Positions 6,725-59,746 of a stretch of DNA of 64,000 nucleotides are shown here, one piece after another. A program made the translations under genes and the position numbers. Where the stretch lies: assembly GCF_021869765.1 (NCBI RefSeq), contig NZ_CP084580.1, forward strand, positions 1,922,001 to 1,986,000, read 5' to 3'. The stretch comes from Chryseobacterium sp. MEBOG06. GTDB taxonomy: Bacteria > Bacteroidota > Bacteroidia > Flavobacteriales > Weeksellaceae. The notes under the pieces were generated by a model. It saw only the letters and a list, made by a program, of their open reading frames with translations, did no database searches and was not told the DNA's origin. Every line of letters begins with the position of its first letter. The first letter of the stretch is position 1.

Positions 6725-9700
6725 ATGCTGAAACTATTTATAAGAAGACCAGTGCTAAGTACGGTGATTTCTGTAATCATTGTTGTTCTAGGGGTTTTAG
6801 GAATCAGTGGTTTACCCGTTGCTCAGTATCCTGATATTGCACCTCCTACCATTCAGGTTTCGGCATCTTATCCCGGAGCTAATACCACTACGCTTATTAA
6901 CAGTGTGGTTTTTCCGCTTGAACAGCAGATCAACGGGGTAGAAGGTATGACCTATATGACTTCTTCTGCCAGTAACACGGGTTCTGCCAGTATCAGCGTC
7001 TATTTTGCGGTGGGCGTAGATCCTAATCAGGCTGCGGTAGATGTTCAGAACAGGATCAGTACTGTTCTTTCTAAGCTGCCACAGGCCGTAACCCAGGCTG
7101 GGGTAACCGTAAGAAAACAGCAGAGCAGTAATGTCCTGATTGTGGGTTTATTCAGTGAACGTCCTCAATATGATCAGAAGTTTTTGCAGAATTATGCTGC
7201 TATTAACCTTGTTCCTCAATTGCAGAGAGCAAAAGGAGTAGGGGGAGCTACTATATTTGGGGGAGCAATGACCTATGCAATGCGGATTTGGCTACAACCT
7301 GATAAAATGGCAGCTTACGGACTGGTGCCTGCTGATGTAACCGCAGTTTTGAATGCGCAGAACTTTAATGCGGCTCCCGGAAAAATTGGTGATAATCTAG
7401 ATCAGGCTTTCCAATATGATATTACCTATTCTGGAACATTGGTTTCATTAGAACAGTTTCAGAATGTAATTGTCAAATCTATTGGTAACGGACAGTATCT
7501 TTATTTAAAAGATGTTGCACGGATTGATCTTGGAACACAAACTTATACCAGTGCTACAGCAATCAACGGAAAGCCTGCTGTTGCAGTGGCGATCAGCCAG
7601 ACACCGGGCTCCAATGCCCAACAGGTGATTACAGGGGCACAAAAAGTAATGGCTGATGCCTCAAAAAGTTTTCCTTCAGGCATTAAAATGATGGAACTGG
7701 TGAATATCAATAACTTCCTCAGCGAAAGTATTTCCAAAGTACTCCATACCTTAGTGGAATGTTTTTTACTGGTATTCCTGGTTATTCTTATCTTTTTACA
7801 GGATGTACGGTCTACTATTATTCATGGTGTTTCGGTTCCGGTATCTATTATAGGAACATTTTTTTTCCTGTATTTATTCGGATACAGTCTTAACCTGCTT
7901 ACTTTATTCGCTCTCGTACTGGCCATCGGTATTGTAGTGGATGACGCGGTAGTGGTAGTAGAAGCTGTTCACAGTAAACTGGAACACGGTTATACTTCTC
8001 CCCGTAAGGCTGCAATTGATGCAATGGGAGAAATTGCTCCGGCTATTATTTCGATCACCCTTGTAATGGCTTCTGTGTTTCTTCCGGTAACTTTTCTGGG
8101 AGGTTCTGCAGGAGTTTTTTACAAACAGTTTGGAATCACTCTGGCAGTAGCAATCATGATCTCCGCAGTGAACGCTCTTACCTTAAGCCCAGCATTGGCC
8201 GCCATGTTTCTAAGGCCGCCGAATCACGAAGAAGAAGCAAAGAAAAAAGGTTTATTACAAAAGATGAAATCAGGTTTTAATTCCAATTATGAAAAACTGA
8301 TTAATAAATATACAGATACAGTAAGCTTTCTTATAAGAAGAACATGGCTGACAGTGGTGTTGGTAATTATTTTTGGCGGATTGTTTTATGTGACTATTAA
8401 AAGTGTAGCCTCCAGTTTCGTTCCTTCAGAGGATATGGGGACTATATTCGTTAACGTAACTCTTCCGGTAGCCGCCAGTAAAGAAAGAGTACAGGCAGTC
8501 AATACCCAGATCGACCATATTGCACATACAATCCCTGAAGTACAGGCTTCTATGACTACGTTGGGGCAAAACCAGCTTGGAGGAAGCGGGAGTTCATATG
8601 GGATGCTTATTTTAAGGCTTACTCCATGGAGCCAGCGGCCCGGAGTTACAGATAAAGATGTCATACAACAGCTTACAGAAAAAACAAAACATATACAGGG
8701 AGCTTCTATTAATTTTATGCAGCAGCCTACCATTAGTGGTTTCGGAACAAGTGGCGGATTTACTTTTCAAATAGAAGACAGAGGAGGGCATAGCATTGGT
8801 GATTTTTATAACGTTGCCCAGAATTTTCTTTCAGCACTTAATAAAAGAAGTGAAATTCAATATGCAGCAACAGCATTCAATCCTAATTTTCCGCAATATG
8901 AAGTAGACGTAAATGTCGCAAAATGTGAAGATAACGGAATACAGCCTTCTGATATCTTAAACCTTATGAATGTGTACTACGGAAGTTCATACATCAGCAA
9001 CTTTACAGAATTTGGACAGCAATATCAAATTATTCTTCAGGCAGACAATCCTTATCGGGGAACTGTAGAGCAGATGAATAATATTAAAATCAGAACCCAA
9101 AGCGGAACGATGAGCCCTATTTCAGAATATATTACCATGAAAAAGGTATATGGACCTTCTTCTGTTTCAAGATTTAATATGTATAATGCGATCTCGGTAA
9201 GTGGATCTCCCAATGCAAGCTACAGTACAGGGCAGGCAATGCAGGCAATCAATGAAGTGGCAGATCAGACTCTTCCTCCCGGATACAGTTTTGAATACAG
9301 TGGAATCAGTAAAGAAGAGCAGAGCTCCGGCTCTCAGGCGGGAATTATATTCCTTTTGAGCCTATGTTTTGTTTATTTGCTTTTAAGTGCATTATATGAA
9401 AGTTATATTCTCCCGTTGGCAGTTATTCTTTCGCTGCCGGTAGGACTGAGTGGTATTTTCGTTTTTGCCAAGTTATTTGGAATAGATAATAATATTTATG
9501 TGCAGATCTGTATGGTAATGCTGATAGGGCTCTTGGCCAAAAATGCTATTTTAATGGTAGAATTCTCACTTGAAAAGAGACATGAGGGGATGAGTCTGCT
9601 GGACAGTGCTCTGGCAGGAGCGAAAATCAGAATAAGACCTATTCTGATGACTTCCCTGGCTTTTATTTTTGGATTAATGCCTTTAATGTTCTCTACTGGT

Positions 9701-49254: not shown

Positions 49255-49564
49255 TATTGATCAACCATGAAAATAGAGTAAGTTTTTTTTGAAAAATGGA
49301 TAATTTTCATTGAAAGTAAAAGGGGATAAGAGCAATTGGTGAACAGATGTTTGAGCCTGATCTGTAAACGGGAATTCAAAGGAGAGATTACTAAGGAATA
49401 TTACTAGGATTAAAAAATATTTCTTAAAAAACATAGTAACACATCGGGAAGTTCTCTTTGATTTTAAATGATTGGTATTTAGATTTTAATATACTTTATT
49501 TTTGATTTTTAAGTGAGTTGAATGCTTATTGAATCTAAAAAAAATAATTTTATTGAAAAAATAT
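49255..49564. other. Non-coding stretch before the tRNA promoter
   Basis: About 310 AT-rich bases between the S41 peptidase gene and the tRNA-Ser promoter. No coding frame, repeat or hairpin of note was found. Confidence 0.4.
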
Positions 49565-49595
49565 TTTGTCAATATTAAAAAACTTTCTATATTTG
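49565..49595 (+). promoter_or_regulatory. Promoter of tRNA-Ser
   Basis: TTTG (49565-49568), a 19-base spacer, then TATATTTG (49588-49595). This is a textbook Bacteroidota -33/-7 pair, placed 35 bases ahead of the tRNA 5' end. Confidence 0.75.
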
Positions 49596-49630
49596 CACCA
49601 CTGAAAAACAACGGTACTACCGGAGTTTAT

Positions 49631-49715
49631 GGAGAGATGGCAGAGTGGTCGATTGCGATAGTCTTGAAAACTATTGACTGTAACAGGTCCGGGGGTTCGA
49701 ATCCCTCTCTCTCCG
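49631..49715 (+). tRNA. tRNA-Ser (anticodon UGA)
   Basis: An 85-base tRNA with acceptor stem GGAGAGA / TCTCTCC, a T-loop GGGGGTTCGAATCCC, an anticodon loop CTTGAAA with anticodon TGA, and the long variable arm usual for serine tRNA. CCA is not encoded. It is the landmark beside which two IS copies lie. Confidence 0.93.
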
Positions 49716-49740
49716 CAGGTTGAGAAACTAAAATAAGCTA

Positions 49741-49772
49741 AAATGCTGTAAACATCAATGTTTACAGCATTT
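49741..49772. terminator. Terminator after tRNA-Ser
   Basis: Perfect 15-base inverted repeat AAATGCTGTAAACAT / ATGTTTACAGCATTT with a 2-base loop, followed by TCTGTTTTTG. Confidence 0.85.
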
Positions 49773-49804
49773 TCTGTTTTTGCACTACTATCAAAAAAAA
49801 TCAA

Positions 49805-49831
49805 AATAGGTCACGATTTATATGACCTATT
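49805..49831. repeat. Hairpin abutting the IS copy 1 left end
   Basis: AATAGGTCA and TGACCTATT are inverted repeats with a 9-base loop. The structure ends 2 bases before the IS terminal repeat. It may be part of the target site or of an older element; no cause can be shown. Confidence 0.35.
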
Positions 49832-49856
49832 CCGGATCAGGTGCAAAAGTTGGGGG

Positions 49857-50846
49857 CTAAGCAAAAAGTTTGGTTAATCTGAATAAAAAAAATGATCTGT
49901 CCTTCACCCCTCTGAGCTGCATCCTAAAGTTTTTGATTTTAGCATTGAAAGATTCAGCCGCTGCGTTAGTGCTTCTTTTATCAAAATAATTTAGAATATC
50001 TCTGTAATGATGGATTATGGTCTTTCTTAAGGTGGAAAAAGATCTAAAATCTGCTTCTTCAACATTTCTAAACCAATGCGCAAGTTTAGTCATAGCCACA
50101 GATTTTGTAATAGGCTGATTATAGATCTTTCTAAGGCCATCGGTTAATCCATACGCTTTTTCCAGATCAGGATATTGAGCAAAAAGGATGGAAGCTCTTT
50201 GCCTCTGGGACAGCGTCCATTTTTCCCGGCTCTTGTAAAGCAGATACCTGCTTCTTGCCAGAAGCTGTTTGCGGGAATCTCCATTTTCAAATACTTCCGT
50301 CTTTAAAATTTGCTCTTCAGAGGCTTCTTCAAGAGTCTTATTTTCCATTTCAAGGGCTTCCCAACGATGTTTGATCCTGATTTCCTGAAGGGCTTCCAGA
50401 GCCAGCTTTTGAACATGAAAGCGGTCGATCACCTGTACTGCATTAGGAAAGCATCTTTTAGCAATACGCTTCATGGAGCCCGCCATATCCAAAGTTATTT
50501 CCTTTACCTTCATCCGAAGTCTCCTGCTGATTTTTAAAAGATGCGCGATGACAAAATCACTCTGAGTCCCTTTTATAATTGCAACAATACTTCCTTTTCT
50601 CCCTTTGGCTCTTTTGGAGGTAAGAACGGTATACAGTTCTCCATCAGATAAAGCAACTTCGTCTAAGGATAGGGATGCTGAGAGATTTTCAGGATAAATG
50701 ATCCAGTCTTCTGCGTGAGGTTTTTGTTCCCAACTATGATATTCGCTGAGTTTATTCTTGTATTGTCTCTGGAAAGTCTTACCCTTGATACCAAAAAATT
50801 CTGCTATAACTTTGAGAGGAAGAGCTTTAGTGTCTGCTAATTTTTT
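49857..50846 (-). CDS. ISAon1-like transposase, main (DDE) part, ORF2
   Basis: The frame is open from about 50846 to 49857 (329 codons), but the first ATG is at 50513 (MKVKEITLDMAG), well inside the domain. The upstream part (ADTKALPLKVIAEFFGIKG, ALSDGELYTVLTSKRAKGRKG) is therefore expected to be made by frameshift from ORF1. DDE residues are suggested by LDMAGS, VIDRFHVQKLALEA and NAAAESFNAKIK. This intact copy ends LRGVKDRSFFLFRLTKLFA. It would mobilise the element if the frameshift product is made. Confidence 0.85.
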   Translation of the reverse strand, partial: KKLADTKALPLKVIAEFFGIKGKTFQRQYKNKLSEYHSWEQKPHAEDWIIYPENLSASLSLDEVALSDGELYTVLTSKRAKGRKGSIVAIIKGTQSDFVIAHLLKISRRLRMKVKEITLDMAGSMKRIAKRCFPNAVQVIDRFHVQKLALEALQEIRIKHRWEALEMENKTLEEASEEQILKTEVFENGDSRKQLLARSRYLLYKSREKWTLSQRQRASILFAQYPDLEKAYGLTDGLRKIYNQPITKSVAMTKLAHWFRNVEEADFRSFSTLRKTIIHHYRDILNYFDKRSTNAAAESFNAKIKNFRMQLRGVKDRSFFLFRLTKLFA

Positions 50847-51195
50847 TTAAGAAGACCGCAAATTCATTTGTCATGCGCGTTCCTTTAGCTACAACCTGCC
50901 AGTTTCTTTGAAGGATTTCTCCTGAAGACTTATCGGTCCATCTTCTTCTTTTCACGTGAAGCTTTACGATTTTACCCCTTAATGGGTAATCATCTACAAT
51001 AATTTCAGGTAAAAAGCCTTTTGATTCTAGCAGTCTTTCTTTAAATTCCTCAGGAATACTGCTTTTTTCTTCAAAATAAATATGAAGTTCACCAGAATAT
51101 TCTTCTGCTTTGAGGATATCAAAGTGTTCAACTAGAAATTCTGGAAGTAAGAATTTAAGAAGGTCGTAATCGCTTAGCATAAGACAAAGATACAA
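50827..51195 (-). CDS. ISAon1-like transposase N-terminal region, ORF1
   Basis: A 122-residue frame corresponding to the N-terminal region of ISAon1-family transposase. It ends FAVFLKKISRH right over an A8 run, where the main frame joins one base later (a +1 shift, or slippage on the run). The blocks HVKRRRWTDKSSGEILQRNW and KGTRMTNEFAVF are basic and probably bind DNA. The start could equally be the Met at residue 6. Confidence 0.8.
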   Translation of the reverse strand: MYLCLMLSDYDLLKFLLPEFLVEHFDILKAEEYSGELHIYFEEKSSIPEEFKERLLESKGFLPEIIVDDYPLRGKIVKLHVKRRRWTDKSSGEILQRNWQVVAKGTRMTNEFAVFLKKISRH

Positions 51196-51319
51196 CCACT
51201 AAACATTCCCCCCAACTTTTGAGACTGATCCATTATGGACCAGGTGCAAAAGTTGGGGGCTAAGCAAAAAGTTTGGTTAATCTGAATAAAAAAAACGATC
51301 TGTCCTTCACCCCTCTGAG

Positions 51320-52249
51320 CTACATCCTGAAGTTTTTGATTTTAGCATTGAAAGATTCAGCCGCTGCGTTAGTGCTTCTTTTATCAAAATAATTTAGAAT
51401 ATCTCTGTAATGGTGCATTATGGTCTTTCTTAAGGTGGAAAAAGATCTAAAATCTGCTTCTTCAACATTTCTAAACCAATGCGCAAGTTTAGTCATAGCC
51501 ACAGATTTTGTAATAGGCTGATTATAGATCTTTCTTAATACATCCGTTAATCCATACGCTTTTTCCAGATCAGGATATTGAGCAAAAAGGATGGAAGCTC
51601 TTTGCCTCTGGGACAGCGTCCATTTTTCCCGGCTCTTGTAAAGCAGATACCTGCTTCTTGCCAGAAGCTGTTTTCGGGCATCTCCGTTTTCAAATACTTC
51701 CGTCTTTAAAATTTGCTCTTCAGAGGCTTCTTCAAGAGTCTTATTTTCCATTTCAAGGGCTTCCCAACGATGTTTGATCCTTATTTCCTGAAGGGCTTCC
51801 AGAGCCAGCTTTTGAACATGAAAGCGGTCGATCACCTGTACTGCATTAGGAAAGCATCTTTTAGCAATACGCTTCATGGAGCCCGCCATATCCAAAGTTA
51901 TTTCCTTTATCTTCATACGAAGTCTCCTGCTGATTTTTAAAAGATGCGCGATGACAAAATCACTCTGAGTCCCTTTTATAATTGCAACAATACTTCCTTT
52001 TCTCCCTTTGGCTCTTTTGGAGGTAAGAACGGTATACAGTTCTCCATCAGATAAAGCAACTTCGTCTAAGGATAAGGATGCTGAGAGATTTTCAGGATAA
52101 ATGATCCAGTCTTCTGCGTGAGGTTTTTGTTCCCAGCTATGATATTCGCTGAGTTTATTCTTGTATTGTCTCTGGAAGGTTTTACCCTTGATACCAAAAA
52201 ATTCTGCTATAACTTTGAGAGGAAGAGCTTTAGTGTCTGCTAATTTTTT
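51320..52249 (-). pseudogene. ISAon1-like transposase ORF2, copy 2, nonsense-truncated
   Basis: Nearly identical to ORF2 of copy 1, but the Gln codon after KNFRM is TAG (51320-51322), removing the last 20 residues. Beyond it the frame continues to a stop at 51260. The first ATG is at 51916, and the expected A8 frameshift site is also present at 52244-52251. Loss of the end of the catalytic region probably inactivates it. Confidence 0.75.
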
Positions 52250-52577
52250 TTAAGAAGACGGCAAATTCATTTGTCATGCGTGTTCCTTTAGCTACAACCT
52301 GCCAGTTTCTTTGAAGGATTTCTCCTGAAGACTTATCGGTCCATCTTCTTCTTTTCACGTGAAGCTTTACGATTTTACCCCTTAATGGGTAATCATCTAC
52401 AATAATTTCAGGTAAAAAGCCTTTTGATTCCAGCAGTCTTTCTTTAAATTCCTCAGGAATACTGCTTTTTTCTTCAAAATAAATATCTGCTTTGAGGATA
52501 TTAAAGTGTTCAACTAGAAATTCTGGAAGTAAAAATTTAAGAAGGTCGTAATCGCTTAGCATAAGACAAAGATACAA
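52230..52577 (-). CDS. ISAon1-like transposase N-terminal region, copy 2 (short)
   Basis: A 115-residue version of ORF1 in which the residues AEEYSGELH of copy 1 are replaced by AD through an in-frame deletion of 21 bases. Everything else, including HVKRRRWTDKSS and the A8 site, agrees with copy 1. Confidence 0.75.
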   Translation of the reverse strand: MYLCLMLSDYDLLKFLLPEFLVEHFNILKADIYFEEKSSIPEEFKERLLESKGFLPEIIVDDYPLRGKIVKLHVKRRRWTDKSSGEILQRNWQVVAKGTRMTNEFAVFLKKISRH

Positions 52578-52612
52578 CCACTAAACATTCCCCCAACTTT
52601 TGAGACTGATCC

Positions 52613-52839
52613 AAATATTTCTTAATAATTACATTTAAATTTTCAATACATTGTGATTAAATTTAGAATAGAATATGTTAACAAGTTATAAAATTTAAAG
52701 ATTGGTTATGGATTTGCTATTATATGGGCTGCTTAGTTTGGAATTCTCTATATAAAGATATAGCTTAGCATAAATTAAAAAACACCAGTGCACGAATGTT
52801 TTTTAGAATTAAAAAATATTAATTTTAAAAATTAAGAAA
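52613..52839. other. Upstream region of the double-glycine peptide gene
   Basis: AT-rich 227 bases between IS copy 2 and the peptide gene. A weak promoter may be formed by TTTG (52737-52740) and TATAGCTTAG 18 bases later, but the second element departs from TAnnTTTG. I saw no other structure. Confidence 0.35.
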
Positions 52840-53016
52840 ATGAATTTATCAAAATTAAATGTACAAGAATTAAGTACAAACGAAATGAAGAAAACAGAAG
52901 GAGGTTTTTTTGGTCCATTTAGAGCTGGGCTAACACTTGCTTATAGAAACTGGCTTGCACAAAATGGAGGTGGTACTTATAATGGCAGTGATTACGGTTG
53001 GGGAGGTATCCATTAA
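52840..53016 (+). CDS. Double-glycine leader peptide, bacteriocin-like precursor
   Basis: A 58-residue precursor. Residues 1-22 form a leader with L11, E15, M16 and the cleavage pair G21-G22, which matches the double-glycine consensus (Leu -12, Glu -8, Leu/Met -7, Gly-Gly -2/-1). The predicted 36-residue product begins FFGPFRAGL and ends DYGWGGIH. It is rich in Gly and aromatic residues and has no Cys, so no lanthionine or disulfide. The C39 ABC transporter encoded 1.7 kb downstream is the natural processing exporter. Antimicrobial or signalling activity is inferred from this pairing, not proven. Confidence 0.8.
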   Translation: MNLSKLNVQELSTNEMKKTEGGFFGPFRAGLTLAYRNWLAQNGGGTYNGSDYGWGGIH

Positions 53017-53064
53017 TTTATTTTTCGTATATAGGCATTATTATTTTGTTAAAAACTGATTATT

Positions 53065-53193
53065 ATGTTTGATATTATATTTGCAACACTCTTTATTGCA
53101 ACAGATTTGATTATTTATATCTTTCTTGCAAGGAAATATAAAACATATAACCCCTTTAAAATATCCAAATTTTGGATTAAGGAATATATGTAA
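53065..53193 (+). CDS. Small membrane protein next to the bacteriocin-like gene
   Basis: A 42-residue frame, MFDIIFATLFIATDLIIYIF then a basic tail ending FWIKEYM. It has one hydrophobic segment and a positively charged C-terminus. It starts 48 bases after the peptide gene, before the hairpin at 53226-53256, so peptide and this frame probably share a message. Such tiny basic membrane proteins often confer immunity to the adjacent bacteriocin; that role is speculation. Confidence 0.5.
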   Translation: MFDIIFATLFIATDLIIYIFLARKYKTYNPFKISKFWIKEYM

Positions 53194-53225
53194 ATTTAAT
53201 TTGAAGGAAAGTTAATAAATTTTAA

Positions 53226-53256
53226 AACAAGGCTGTATAATAAATGCAGCCTTGTT
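53226..53256 (+). terminator. Terminator separating peptide genes from exporter genes
   Basis: AACAAGGCTG and CAGCCTTGTT make a perfect 10-base stem with an 11-base loop, followed by AATTTTAATT. It would end most transcripts of the peptide gene, allowing high peptide and lower exporter expression. Confidence 0.75.
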
Positions 53257-53284
53257 AATTTTAATTACTAAATCATACTATTAG

Positions 53285-53467
53285 ATGTTTAATTTTTTAG
53301 ATAAAAGCAGAATCCTAATTATTCTAGTAAGTGTTCTCATCTTTATTTCATTAATTTTTTTAATGTATATCACAATTGGCATAAAGAAGGAAGAAAAAAG
53401 AGAGATTAATTTTAAAGTATATGCCATAAACAAAAGTAAACCCATTAGCAATAACTACAATGCATAA
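53285..53467 (+). CDS. Small single-pass membrane protein in the export locus
   Basis: A 60-residue protein with one strong membrane helix (ILIILVSVLIFISLIFLMYI) followed by a basic/polar tail (KKEEKREINFKVYAI). Unknown family. Its stop codon overlaps the next small gene, and the adaptor and transporter genes follow, so it is part of the exporter message and could be an accessory or immunity protein. Confidence 0.5.
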   Translation: MFNFLDKSRILIILVSVLIFISLIFLMYITIGIKKEEKREINFKVYAINKSKPISNNYNA

Positions 53468-53564
53468 GCAAAAAAAGGAAAATTTGCAAGAAAATCAATT
53501 TAACATTGGAGTAATTATAGCCATTGCTTTAATGCTTTTTGTAGCAATCTTGTCTGTTTTTTAG
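53460..53564 (+). CDS. Tiny membrane protein, 34 residues
   Basis: ATG at 53460 overlaps the end of the previous frame. The peptide has a polar N-terminal half (MHKQKKENLQENQF) and a hydrophobic C-terminal half (IGVIIAIALMLFVAILSVF). It is too short to name, yet it lies exactly between the 60-residue gene and the adaptor gene with consistent strand, so I accept it as a probable gene. Confidence 0.4.
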   Translation: MHKQKKENLQENQFNIGVIIAIALMLFVAILSVF

Positions 53565-53598
53565 CTTATGCCAAAGTATCTAAAAGTTACACTAAATA

Positions 53599-54681
53599 AT
53601 GGTCAGGAAATTCATATGCATTAGTATTTTACTATTAATTGGCTTGGTTCTGGTTGCTCTACCCATTGTTAAAATCCCCATTTCTTCTTCTTCAAAAGGT
53701 GTAGTTCGTTCTGTAAATGAAAACACTAAACTTAGTTCAGTGGTAAGTGGCAGAGTTATAAAAACTCAATTAGAAAAGAATAATCAATTTCTGAAACAAG
53801 GAGATACATTACTTGTTATAACAGCAGAACAATTAGATACTCAGAAACATCTGCAAAATAGTCAGAGTGAAGATTATGCAGCACAGTTACAGGATTTAAA
53901 CAGACTTACCAAGGGGCGATATAGTAGCTTACAGACAGAACAATACCAAAGGGAACTTTCTGCCATGCAGGAAAAAATTGCACAGGTTCAAACTCAGCTA
54001 TCTTTAGCTCAAAAAGATTTAGACAGAGCTGTTCTGCTTTATAAGCAAGGGGTTATCCCCAAAGCAGAATATGACAAGTATTATTATGACCATCAGGGGT
54101 TTTCTAAACAAATTGCCAATATTAAAGAACAACAAATAGCACAATGGCAAACACAAAAACGAGAAGTTGAAAGACAATTACGTTCTTTCAGTTCAGAAAT
54201 TCAACGTATCAATCAAGAACAAAAAAATTACATTATCACAGCTCCCGTTTCAGGAAGATTGGTTAATTTTTCAGGAGTTCAAATAGGGAACTTTTTAGTT
54301 CAGGGACAAACGGTAGGAGAAATTTCTCCCGAACAATCTTTGGTTATCGAATGTTTGGTTTCTCCCAAAGATATAGGATTTATCCAAGTAGGGCAAAAGG
54401 TAAAATTTCAAGTAGATACTTACAATTATAACCAATGGGGACTGCTAGATGGAAAGGTTCAGGAAATAGACCAAAATGTAAAGATTAATGAACAAACGGG
54501 AGAAGCTTGCTTCAGGGTTCTTTGTGAAATGGATAAAAATTATCTGGAACTAAAAAATGGGTATAAAGGACAAATTGTAAAAGGAATGACCCTTACAGCC
54601 CGTTTCCACCTTATAGACCGTACTTTATGGCAATTGTTATTTGATAAAGCAGATGATTGGTTTAATCCGAAATTGAAATGA
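53599..54681 (+). CDS. HlyD family secretion adaptor
   Basis: A 360-residue HlyD/EmrA-like protein: an N-terminal membrane anchor (FICISILLLIGLVLVALPIV), a lipoyl-like half (LSSVVSGRVIKTQLEKNNQFLKQGDTLLVI), a long coiled coil (residues about 80-200) and the second lipoyl half with a beta domain (YIITAPVSGRLVNFSGVQIGNFLVQGQTVGEI). It spans the periplasm and links the ABC transporter to an outer-membrane channel, which is not encoded here and must come from elsewhere. It overlaps the transporter gene by 4 bases. Confidence 0.88.
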   Translation: MVRKFICISILLLIGLVLVALPIVKIPISSSSKGVVRSVNENTKLSSVVSGRVIKTQLEKNNQFLKQGDTLLVITAEQLDTQKHLQNSQSEDYAAQLQDLNRLTKGRYSSLQTEQYQRELSAMQEKIAQVQTQLSLAQKDLDRAVLLYKQGVIPKAEYDKYYYDHQGFSKQIANIKEQQIAQWQTQKREVERQLRSFSSEIQRINQEQKNYIITAPVSGRLVNFSGVQIGNFLVQGQTVGEISPEQSLVIECLVSPKDIGFIQVGQKVKFQVDTYNYNQWGLLDGKVQEIDQNVKINEQTGEACFRVLCEMDKNYLELKNGYKGQIVKGMTLTARFHLIDRTLWQLLFDKADDWFNPKLK

Positions 54682-56840
54682 TGAAAAAAGATATATTAAT
54701 TAAACAACATGATTTAAAAGATTGTGGTGCAGCTTGTTTGGCTTCTGTTTCTGCTCATTATGGATTAAAAATGCCTATTGCTAAAATTAGACAATTAAGC
54801 CATACTGATACAAGAGGAACTAATGTATTAGGACTTGTACAGGGGTTGGAATCAATGGGGTTTAATGCTAAAGGAGTGAAAGGAGGGGCAGATGTTTTAC
54901 CAGACATTCCATTACCTGCTATTGCTCACATTGTAAGTAAAGAACAATATCATCATTACGTTGTTATCTATAAAGTAGCTAAAAGTAAGGTTTCCGTGAT
55001 GGACCCTGCTTTTGGTAAAGTTGAAGAATATACTAATGAAGAGTTTTCCAAAATATGGACTGGTGTTCTGGTCCTGTTAGAGCCCAATCAATATTTTGAG
55101 CAAAAAAATGAAAAAACCATCCTATACAAAAGATTCTGGAATCTGATACAACCCCATAAAAGCATCTTAATTCAGGCTTTATTAGGGGCATTAGTCTATA
55201 CTATTTTAGGGCTGTCCACATCAATTTATATAGAGAAAATTACGGATTATGTTTTGATTGATGGCAATAGAAGACTTTTAAACTTACTTTCTGTAGGTAT
55301 GATTGTCATTTTATTATTTCAGATTTTTATAGGAGCTATGAAAAGTATTCTTGTTCTGCAAACAGGACAAAAAATGGATAAACACCTGATATTAGGTTAC
55401 TATAAACATTTATTGAAGCTTCCACAACGTTTTTTTGATACCATGAAAGTGGGAGAAATCATTTCAAGGGTAAATGATGCTGTAAAAATAAGAACATTCA
55501 TCAATGATGCTGCTATTCAAATATTTGTAAATATTTTTATTGTTATTTTTTCATTTACTTTAATGTTTACCTATTACTGGAAACTGGGACTCATTACAGC
55601 TTTAGTTATTCCGTTGTATTTTTTTGTCTATTGGCTTACAAACAAACTAAATAAGAAAGTAGAGAGAAAAATGATGGAGGAAAATGCAGAATTAGAATCT
55701 CATTTAGTTGAATCTCTCAATTCAGTCAGAACTCTCAAACAATTTGGAATAGAGACATTTGCCAATAATAAAACAGATAATGCATTTACCAAATTATTAA
55801 AAACAATATATAAGTCTGTACTTAATGCCTTATTTGCAGGTAATTCATCTGAGCTTTTGTCCAGAATATTTACAATCATATTGCTTTGGGTAGGTTCAGG
55901 ATATGTTATAGATAGGATTATTACTCCTGGGGAGCTTTTATCATTTTATGCTTTAATAGGTTACTTTACAAGTCCTGTTGCTGAGCTTATAGGGATGAAT
56001 AAAACAATACAGAATGCTTTAATAGCAGCAGACCGTTTGTTTGAAATTATGGATTTGGAACGGGAAGAAACCACAGAAAAAATTGATTTGGCAACTGAAC
56101 ATATCGGAGATATTCAATTTAAAGAGGTTAATTTTAGCTATGGAAGTAGAGTTGATGTTTTTACTGATTTTAATTGTATACTAAAAAAAGGAGAAACAAC
56201 TGCCATCGTAGGAGAAAGTGGAAGTGGGAAAACTACCTTAGCAGCTTTAATTCAAAATTTATATTCTTTAAAATCAGGTAAAATTCTAATTGGAGACTAT
56301 GATATAAACTACATTTCAAATTACTCACTAAGGAGTTTAATTTCGGTTGTACCCCAACAGATAGATTTGTTTTCGGGAAATGTAATTGAAAACATTGCAT
56401 TAGGAGATGATTTTCCTGATATGCAGAGAGTATTTAGCATAACTAAAAACTTAGGAATATTAAGCTTTGTAGAAAAACTTCCGAATGGTTTTCAGACTTA
56501 TTTAGGGGAAAACGGGGCTTTATTATCAGGGGGACAAAAGCAAAGAATTGCTATTGCCAGAGCTTTGTATAAGAATCCTGAAATTTTAATTTTAGATGAA
56601 GCAACATCTTCGTTAGATACCGAAGCAGAGACTGTTATACAGAAAACATTACAAGAATTTAAAAATCAAGGTAAAACAATGATTGTCATAGCTCACCGAT
56701 TAAGTACGGTTGCTAATTCTGACACCATTCTTGTCATGAAAGAAGGACAAATTATAGAACAAGGGAACCATGATGAGCTCATTTCTAAAAATTCGGTATA
56801 TAAGTCTATGTGGGAAAAGCAAAGTCTTAGATTGAGTTGA
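54678..56840 (+). CDS. C39-peptidase ABC transporter (bacteriocin-type exporter)
   Basis: A 720-residue fusion of three parts. The C39 cysteine peptidase (1-130) shows QHDLKDCGAACLASV (catalytic C16), H93 in YHHYVVIY and D109 in MDPAFG. Six membrane helices follow (about 155-440), then an ABC domain with Walker A GESGSGKTTL (near 510-518), signature LSGGQKQRIAIARAL and Walker B ILILDEAT. Such proteins cut double-glycine leaders and export the mature peptide at once; the peptide at 52840 is the obvious substrate. The C39 triad looks intact. Confidence 0.92.
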   Translation: MMKKDILIKQHDLKDCGAACLASVSAHYGLKMPIAKIRQLSHTDTRGTNVLGLVQGLESMGFNAKGVKGGADVLPDIPLPAIAHIVSKEQYHHYVVIYKVAKSKVSVMDPAFGKVEEYTNEEFSKIWTGVLVLLEPNQYFEQKNEKTILYKRFWNLIQPHKSILIQALLGALVYTILGLSTSIYIEKITDYVLIDGNRRLLNLLSVGMIVILLFQIFIGAMKSILVLQTGQKMDKHLILGYYKHLLKLPQRFFDTMKVGEIISRVNDAVKIRTFINDAAIQIFVNIFIVIFSFTLMFTYYWKLGLITALVIPLYFFVYWLTNKLNKKVERKMMEENAELESHLVESLNSVRTLKQFGIETFANNKTDNAFTKLLKTIYKSVLNALFAGNSSELLSRIFTIILLWVGSGYVIDRIITPGELLSFYALIGYFTSPVAELIGMNKTIQNALIAADRLFEIMDLEREETTEKIDLATEHIGDIQFKEVNFSYGSRVDVFTDFNCILKKGETTAIVGESGSGKTTLAALIQNLYSLKSGKILIGDYDINYISNYSLRSLISVVPQQIDLFSGNVIENIALGDDFPDMQRVFSITKNLGILSFVEKLPNGFQTYLGENGALLSGGQKQRIAIARALYKNPEILILDEATSSLDTEAETVIQKTLQEFKNQGKTMIVIAHRLSTVANSDTILVMKEGQIIEQGNHDELISKNSVYKSMWEKQSLRLS

Positions 56841-57355
56841 AAACGAACGGAAAATGAGTTAAATTTCAATCTATTATTTTATTTTATTAAAAGACTATAA
56901 ATCAATCATTTATCACATTGGCTGTTAGAAATAGTAGTTTACAGAAAGGAATTGATAAAAGGCAGCTTTTTTTTAATGGTTTGGAACAATTATTTTAGTG
57001 GGAATATAGTGCATTTTGAACACTAAAAAACAGTCAAAAAATGGCTAAAATTGAATGTGCCATTTGTTTTTGATAAACGTTTGAAAATCAGTTTTTTAAT
57101 AAGTGAAACAATCCAGTCTTGTTGCTGCGTATATAGAGAAACGAAAATCTCCTCTAAAACTGGAGAGAATTTCTCTTTGTTAAAACCTCATAAAAGAGGT
57201 GTGCTTGTTCTGCGGCTTATAGAGAATTTCTTTTTGTAATAACAGCTTTGTAATTTGGGAATATACGGGTAAATCTCAACAGTTCCTCAAAATATCTGTC
57301 ATTTCTACGATTTAAAGGAGTCATTTTTATCAAGTCTTATTATAGAATCCATATT
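56841..57355. other. AT-rich non-coding stretch after the exporter
   Basis: About 515 bases with no gene I would accept. A 62-codon frame at 57051-57239 is possible but its residues look random. Short repeats of GAGAAAT/CTCC-like motifs occur near 57140-57170 without clear stem structure. Confidence 0.4.
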
Positions 57356-57591
57356 GAAATTTGACAATTTTACCTCTTAATGGGTCATCATCTACAATAA
57401 TTTCAGAAAGAAAACCTTTGGACTCTAATAATCTATCTTGTAATTCATCATGAATACAGCTTTTTTCTTGAAAATAAATATCTGCTTTGAGGATATCAAA
57501 GTGTTCAACTAGAAATTCTGGAAGTATAATTTAAGAAGTTCGTGATCGCTTAAGATAATCCTTGCTGCCCTATAACTTTTGCACCTGATCC
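57356..57591 (-). mobile_element. Fossil of an ISAon1-like element (right end)
   Basis: A degenerate 236-base piece equivalent to the ORF1 start and right end of the IS copies: the tract covering the coding blocks FLPEIIVDDYP and ILKADIYF can be followed, and it ends with GCACCTGATCC, a terminal repeat. It carries the same 21-base deletion as copy 2, but with many more differences and frameshifts. It marks the downstream edge of the export locus. Confidence 0.7.
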
Positions 57592-57677
57592 GATGGTCCC
57601 CGAAGGGAAACTTTAAATAATAACAAGATTCGGATTTTATCCGATATGAATAATTTAGAAATTGCAAAAAAAATTAG

Positions 57678-58331: not shown

Positions 58332-59746
58332 TTATTCCAAAATGGCTTTAGGTTCAAGATATTCTTCCAGTCCGAATTCACCATATTCTCTTCCAATACC
58401 AGACTGTTTGAAACCGCCGAACGGTGCTTTGGAATCGTGCAGAATACCATTAATGCAGACTCTTCCTGCATCAATCTCGGCAGCTACCCGATAGGCTCTC
58501 TCTTGATCTGAAGAACTGACATAGGCACATAACCCATAAGCTGTGTCATTGGCAATAGCTACAGCATCTTCTTCATCTTTATAAGGTATAATACTTAATA
58601 CCGGCCCGAAAATCTCTTCCTGGGCGATACGCATGCTGTTTTTTACATTGGTGAAAACCGTTGCCTTTACGAAATTTCCGGCTTCAAGCCCTTCAGGTTT
58701 TCCGGGGCCGCCAACCAATAACGTTGCGCCTTCTTCCAGTCCGATTTTAATATATTCCTGTACCCGTTCAAACTGTTTTTTACTTACCATAGGACCTATA
58801 CCTGTATCTTCATTTTTTGGGTTACCAACTTTTGTTTTCTCAACTGTGTTTTTTGCAATTACATTTACCTGTTCTAATTTATCATAGGGAACCAATAAGC
58901 GGGTAGCAGCTGCACAGGCTTGTCCACTATTCAGGAAAGCACCCATTATAGCGGTGGGTATTGCTGTTTCTAAATCAACATCATCTAAAATGATATTCGG
59001 CGACTTTCCACCTAATTCCAATGTTACCCTTTTCATGGTATCAACGGCTCCTTTAGCGATAATTTTTCCTACGGCTGTAGAACCGGTAAATGCAATTTAT
59101 CAATTCCCGGATTGCGGGTGATTTCAGCACCCACCACATCACCCATTCCGGTTACAAAGTTAACAATACCCTTTGGAAGACCTGCCTCATGAAAACATTC
59201 GGCTATGATCTGTGTTTGCTGGGCACTCATTTCACTGGGTTTTACAACGGCTGTACAGCCTGCTGCAATAGCTGTTGATAATTTGGTACAGATAAATCCA
59301 TTGCTCATGTTCCAGGGTATAATAATACCGACAACCCCCTTAGGCTGTAGACGAAGTTTTGAGTGACCTATAGTACGTTCGAAATCAAAATTTTTCAATG
59401 TTTCGATCATCGCTGTAAAATCGTCAATGGCGAATTGAGAAACCATTGAGCAAAACTGATAGGTTCCGCCATATTCTTCAACCATCACATCGGTTAAGTC
59501 TTTTTGGCGTTTGATGATTACTGAGCGTATTTTTTCCAGAAGAGTGATACGTTCATCCTTTGTGCTTTTTGAAAAGGTTTTGAACGCCATCCTTGCAGCA
59601 TGAATTGCATTTTGAGTGTCAACCTTATCAGCGAGTGTTACCTCTGCCATTTTCTGACCACTTGTAGGATTGATCAATTCCAGAATTTCAGTACCATTAG
59701 GCGTTATAAATTCACCATTGATATAAATTTTATTAATTACTTTCAT
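58332..59746 (-). pseudogene. Aldehyde dehydrogenase with a one-base frameshift
   Basis: A full-length aldehyde dehydrogenase of about 470 residues split in two frames. The first part (59746 to 59069) ends NPGIDKLHLPVLQP; the second (from about 59094 to 58332) has the catalytic Cys in NSGQACAAATRLL and the conserved LELGGKSP. Family comparison expects NPGIDKIAFTGST; one missing A in the run near 59097 explains the break. Walker-like glycine motif and the C-terminal PFGGFKQSGIGREYG are intact. It follows the SnoaL-like, AraC and membrane genes on the same strand. Confidence 0.85.

Follow-up and report, generated by a model that had tools for sequence, protein, structure and literature searches.

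A putative locus for the export of an unmodified double-glycine bacteriocin in Chryseobacterium sp. MEBOG06

Introduction

Class II microcin systems consist of a precursor peptide, a C39-peptidase ABC exporter (PCAT), a membrane fusion protein, TolC and a membrane immunity protein, and they depend on TolC for function (PMC9746304). The Bacteroidetocins, described from Bacteroidota, have four Cys, leaders of 15–16 aa and a thiol oxidoreductase, and lack an immunity protein (PMC6671954). In class IIb systems, known immunity proteins include members of the CPBP/Abi family (PMC8538875). Others have described double-glycine peptides that serve roles other than killing, e.g., biofilm control in cyanobacteria (PMC4997328).

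Here we analyze a locus within a 64,000-nucleotide stretch (“the window”) of the 5.29-Mb single-contig genome of Chryseobacterium sp. MEBOG06, for which a sequence-only reading had proposed export of either a bacteriocin or a peptide signal. We compare its genes with those of related loci, weigh the two proposals against further alternatives, and place the locus among the systems above.

Results

The precursor gene (52840–53016, + strand) encodes 58 aa; its coordinates had been read correctly, and every leader residue claimed for it (L11, E15, M16, G21, and G22) is present. L11, E15, G21, and G22 are also near-invariant columns among 41 precursors of related loci, a set that includes the window peptide. 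The predicted cut after G22 would release a 36-aa core, FFGPFRAGLTLAYRNWLAQNGGGTYNGSDYGWGGIH, with a calculated average mass of 3922 Da, a net charge of about +1, and no Cys. A profile built from the related precursors, with the window peptide and its close homologue left out, returned the window peptide as the sole real match among 328 window ORFs (E 7.5e-16; runner-up, E 1.2), though the members of this profile were originally found via similarity to the window peptide or nearness to such a match and are not wholly independent of it. Against 12,900 shuffled small ORFs, the same profile reached a best E of 6.1. The very large gap to the runner-up ORF marks the precursor as a genuine gene rather than a chance ORF. 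Its dN/dS is 0.12 over 56 codons relative to the copy in genome G080 (matched to Chryseobacterium paridis).

The core had not been recognized from any described bacteriocin. In family libraries, nothing passed a curated cut-off for the window peptide (TIGR01847, 14.0 vs. 15.7 bits), and Pfam gave no match. An AlphaFold model of the precursor places a helix over residues 24–42 at low confidence (pLDDT 57.6). This genome and G080 agree at every one of core residues 1–20 and differ in the tail, a pattern suggesting that the main function resides in the helix.

Export genes follow on the same strand. The HlyD-type periplasmic adaptor reported earlier is found at 53599–54681 (+; 360 aa; PF13437, E 1.4e-17; TIGR01843, E 1.2e-35, which lies under that model's cut-off), and the C39-peptidase ABC exporter at 54678–56840 (+; 720 aa; PF03412, E 1.4e-35). 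The exporter belongs to the PCAT family by TIGR01193 (532.9 bits; cut-off 523.85) and aligns end to end with PCAT1, an “ABC-type bacteriocin transporter” (PDB 4ry2; E 1.6e-170). Its Cys16, His93, and Asp109—the set previously called intact—are kept in this alignment together with Gln10, and Walker A, LSGGQ, and Walker B are intact as well. PCAT1 comes from a Gram-positive and is not known to need HlyD or TolC, unlike the system proposed for the window.

The outer-membrane channel had been reported as missing, with a host TolC to be borrowed. The first statement holds for the locus, which contains no TolC gene, but not for the genome: the TolC adjoining a sibling exporter in genome G071 has one clear ortholog here (G000:C1:5242235, where G000 is this genome), far from the locus, at 78% over 448/448 residues (next best in the genome, 25%). 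The second was correct in essence, and this ortholog, which would be the partner of the window exporter, can be put forward as the likely channel. In G071, the whole sibling cassette sits between the gene of a 414-aa protein, presumably FolC-like, and the TolC gene, whereas this genome has the same gene order at that site without the cassette; this gene order marks the channel gene as resident, with cassettes being gained and lost beside it. In E. coli, tolC sits apart from the microcin genes. Elsewhere in this genome, four further C39-bearing proteins occur in loci of other make-up (L025–L028).

Three small membrane ORFs in the locus, overlooked in the sequence-only reading, mean that immunity candidates are present. 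A 42-aa single-TM ORF (53065–53193, +) lies directly behind the peptide gene and ahead of a conserved intrinsic terminator (53226–53256, +; 13-bp stem; fold −19 kcal/mol, z −6.0), of which a nearly identical stem stands at the same place in G080. As this terminator closes the unit ahead of the exporter genes in both genomes, the peptide gene and the 42-aa ORF look like a single transcription unit. Among the small ORFs, the 42-aa ORF shows the strongest constraint (dN/dS 0.04). It occurs in exactly 3/173 genus genomes, the same three as the core; no probability is attached to this co-occurrence, since kinship among the species means that they do not count independently. G035 has a damaged peptide gene (no start, a frameshift, and an internal stop) and no exporter of the window type in the 20 kb examined around it, yet the 42-aa ORF is open; protection kept after the weapon is lost is what would be expected of an immunity gene. 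We infer that the 42-aa ORF is the best immunity candidate, a putative protection of the producer.

The other two single-TM ORFs lie beyond the terminator, and both keep their position in G080. The 60-aa ORF (53285–53467, +; 49 aa in G080; dN/dS 0.25) is a candidate accessory or second immunity gene and the 34-aa ORF (53460–53564, +; 33 aa in G080; dN/dS 0.16) a candidate accessory gene; as core-specific immunity candidates, both are less conserved than the 42-aa ORF. None of the small ORFs passed a curated cut-off in the family libraries.

Relatives of the precursor were found in 9/173 genus genomes by single-sequence search and, by profile search, in further genomes and genera, where the weaker matches include other double-glycine families. 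The genome search for the core suggested in the sequence-only reading returned only three loci in the genome contig scan (named matches, C. paridis and C. candidae, of the same genus) and none in plasmids or in the remaining genomes of a 395-genome draw across the class. The loci examined typically line up one to four precursors, at least one membrane ORF, HlyD, ABC and sometimes TolC, in that order; most have two or more precursors, the window locus one. Across the 41 precursors, mean column entropy is 1.5 bits in the leader and 3.0 bits in the core. The class IIb lactobin A/cerein 7B model (TIGR03949) matches 28/41 of them and Bacteriocin_IIc (PF10439) 20/41 at E up to 0.1, a threshold that makes these matches loose, i.e., not all are above the model cut-off. 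A membrane ORF (small TM or CPBP) lies between peptide and HlyD in 19/21 exporter loci, and non-precursor ORFs are hydrophobic more often in sense (37/56) than in antisense of the same stretches (9/28; Fisher p 0.005). CPBP/Abi proteins are present in many related loci, and all seven larger membrane ORFs tested proved to be CPBP/Abi over the Pfam cut-off.

Several of these loci deserve separate mention. Genome G089 has two four-precursor arrays beside exporters (L021:8533–9508 and L085:8847–9818), and these are the only loci of the 21 without a membrane ORF between peptide and HlyD. In L024, a 36-aa membrane ORF (8782–8892) ends in GKVIGKALFYLLN, which closely resembles the end of the neighboring precursor (9048–9209), GKEIGKAAYYLTH—a partner resembling its own peptide. 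A membrane ORF of 29–31 aa (FAPxxIL...IWHY type) recurs with different cores (L018:9834–9929, L019:9457–9552, L020:10725–10820, and L023:9105–9194) and hence may be a general accessory of such loci.

The exporter and the core seem to have separate histories. The window HlyD is closer to its counterparts in G116 and G015 (89–90%), two genomes with an unrelated core, than to the one in G080 (82%), where the core is the same, and the ABC exporter follows suit (92–93 vs. 91%). The HlyD and ABC trees agree, with key-node support of 0.93 for HlyD and just 0.68 for ABC. In G080, the window-type module is preceded by two other precursors, forming a pair, and by two CPBP genes. Exchange of peptide–immunity modules before a common exporter is the simplest reading of these comparisons, with modest support. 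Flavobacteriia may hold a modular system in which a conserved exporter takes swappable cassettes of peptide and membrane immunity gene, here with an unusually small 42-aa immunity protein and its own core family killing close relatives; we put this forward tentatively, at somewhat less than even chance.

Insertion sequences flank the locus. On the left stand two tandem copies (49834–51232, −; and 51237–52613, −, 97% to the first) of an element that we take to be ISAon1-like and that the genome carries in five full-length copies. On the right border lies a related remnant (57355–57592, −) that matches the left copy at 85% across 178 nt and has a terminal repeat, this repeat being a 19/19 inverted match to 49833–49851. 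The gene set is probably movable. A composite transposon moving as one unit was considered but not adopted: the outer IS ends are present, yet a target-site duplication was looked for at 49833 and 57592 and none is visible. The left IS begins exactly where a conserved block behind tRNA-Ser, kept in other species, ends. From the tRNA-Ser to the IS edge (49557–49834), this block is ~90% conserved in many species, sometimes with two copies per genome, and its surroundings differ, making it a possible insertion hot spot; the region beside tRNA-Ser varies among species, and no exact empty site was found at the window position. Farther right, one gene, presumably an aldehyde dehydrogenase (58332–59746, −), is split in two frames by a frameshift near 59040–59100, either as a pseudogene or through sequencing error.

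Discussion

The sequence-only reading proved correct on the locus and on its probable role. Between the two functions first proposed, bacteriocin export is the best supported. Related precursors match the curated class II models, CPBP/Abi proteins accompany them in many loci, and a core-specific membrane ORF holds the equivalent place in the window. In our view, the locus probably encodes a class II bacteriocin of Gram-negative type that consists of one unmodified peptide and would act like a class II microcin. With this gene set, the cell very likely produces an unmodified antibacterial peptide, cuts and exports it, and protects itself against it; the coding parts are all under purifying selection relative to G080. 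Set against this interpretation are a window peptide that falls below all family cut-offs, the single precursor, the low-confidence structure, and the non-killing roles of some other double-glycine peptides.

The sequence itself shows which genes are present, the leader and the catalytic residues, the purifying selection and the co-occurrence, and the terminator and the TolC ortholog, whereas we infer expression, cleavage, killing, target, and immunity. In this reading, one transcript covering the precursor and the 42-aa membrane protein would end at the terminator, and the exporter would be expressed through terminator read-through or from a second start. The C39 domain would cleave the precursor after Gly22, and the ABC exporter, HlyD adaptor and resident TolC ortholog would move the linear 36-residue peptide outside. 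There, its aromatic, probably helical N-terminal half and its Gly/aromatic tail may act on the envelope of related bacteria, while the 42-aa membrane protein would shield the producer.

A lone precursor raises the question of whether the peptide belongs to a two-peptide (class IIb) bacteriocin and has a partner that was lost or lies elsewhere, leaving the locus incomplete. Pairs or larger sets in many related loci, and matches of their precursors to class IIb models, speak for it. However, the module in G080 likewise holds one peptide and the same small ORFs, beside a separate pair, G116 and G015 have a single peptide too, and this genome offers no second close precursor (next match, E 6e-4); we regard half of a pair as unlikely. 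Less likely still is that the identical export route carries a secreted signal (pheromone) or a biofilm or community factor rather than a killer. Here the same class of leader and transporter exports signals in Gram-positives, ComC/BlpC models weakly match a few related precursors, and biofilm factors of a cyanobacterium leave by such a route (PMC4997328). The signal proposed in the sequence-only reading loses ground because the locus has no receptor kinase, regulator, or peptide importer; moreover, between-species core diversity and the CPBP/TM partners point to conflict rather than a shared code, and the core is in just 3/173 genus genomes.

The locus might instead be decaying, with the peptide no longer made and insertion sequences pressing from both sides, which we judge the most improbable of these alternatives. 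It is true that the IS copies come to within ~230 bp of the start codon on the upstream side, that there is an IS remnant on the downstream side, and that the same module has decayed in G035; yet all six ORFs are intact and under purifying selection relative to G080, the peptide gene included, and the 200 bp upstream of the start are still G080-like (145 identities, 50 mismatches, and 10 gaps). A one-peptide bacteriocin locus accordingly stays our preferred reading.

Compared with described systems, the window locus shares with class II microcins (microcin V type, CvaA/CvaB/TolC) the double-glycine precursor, the PCAT, and the membrane fusion protein; it also has a small membrane ORF as immunity candidate, and the genome offers a TolC ortholog as putative channel. 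It differs in its Bacteroidota host and in a core that matches no microcin model, and its 42-aa immunity candidate is below the 51–216 aa range of confirmed immunity proteins (PMC9746304). The lactobin A/cerein 7B family (TIGR03949) is approached through the precursors of orthologous transporters, many with CPBP/Abi beside them, whereas the window peptide is unmatched by that model up to E 1 and stands alone, with a small membrane ORF taking the place of CPBP. With one precursor, the locus is not a class IIb two-peptide operon, and a core without YGNGV and Cys sets it apart from class IIa (pediocin-like) peptides. Like the Bacteroidetocins, it combines a Bacteroidota host, a double-glycine peptide, a C39 exporter, and mobile elements (PMC6671954), but it has no Cys in the core, a 22-aa leader, no thiol oxidoreductase gene in the locus, and an immunity candidate.

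The open-licence literature searched yielded no experimentally described double-glycine bacteriocin from Chryseobacterium, a genus that holds a large, diverse set of precursors with a common exporter. Being compact, with one peptide and one clear immunity candidate, the window locus is a good test case for that whole series, as well as for the ways in which such Gram-negative bacteria combat their near kin. As a probable bacteriocin locus, it adds a new member to a class of weapon already known, its core found here in only three genomes, from a large and little-described series.
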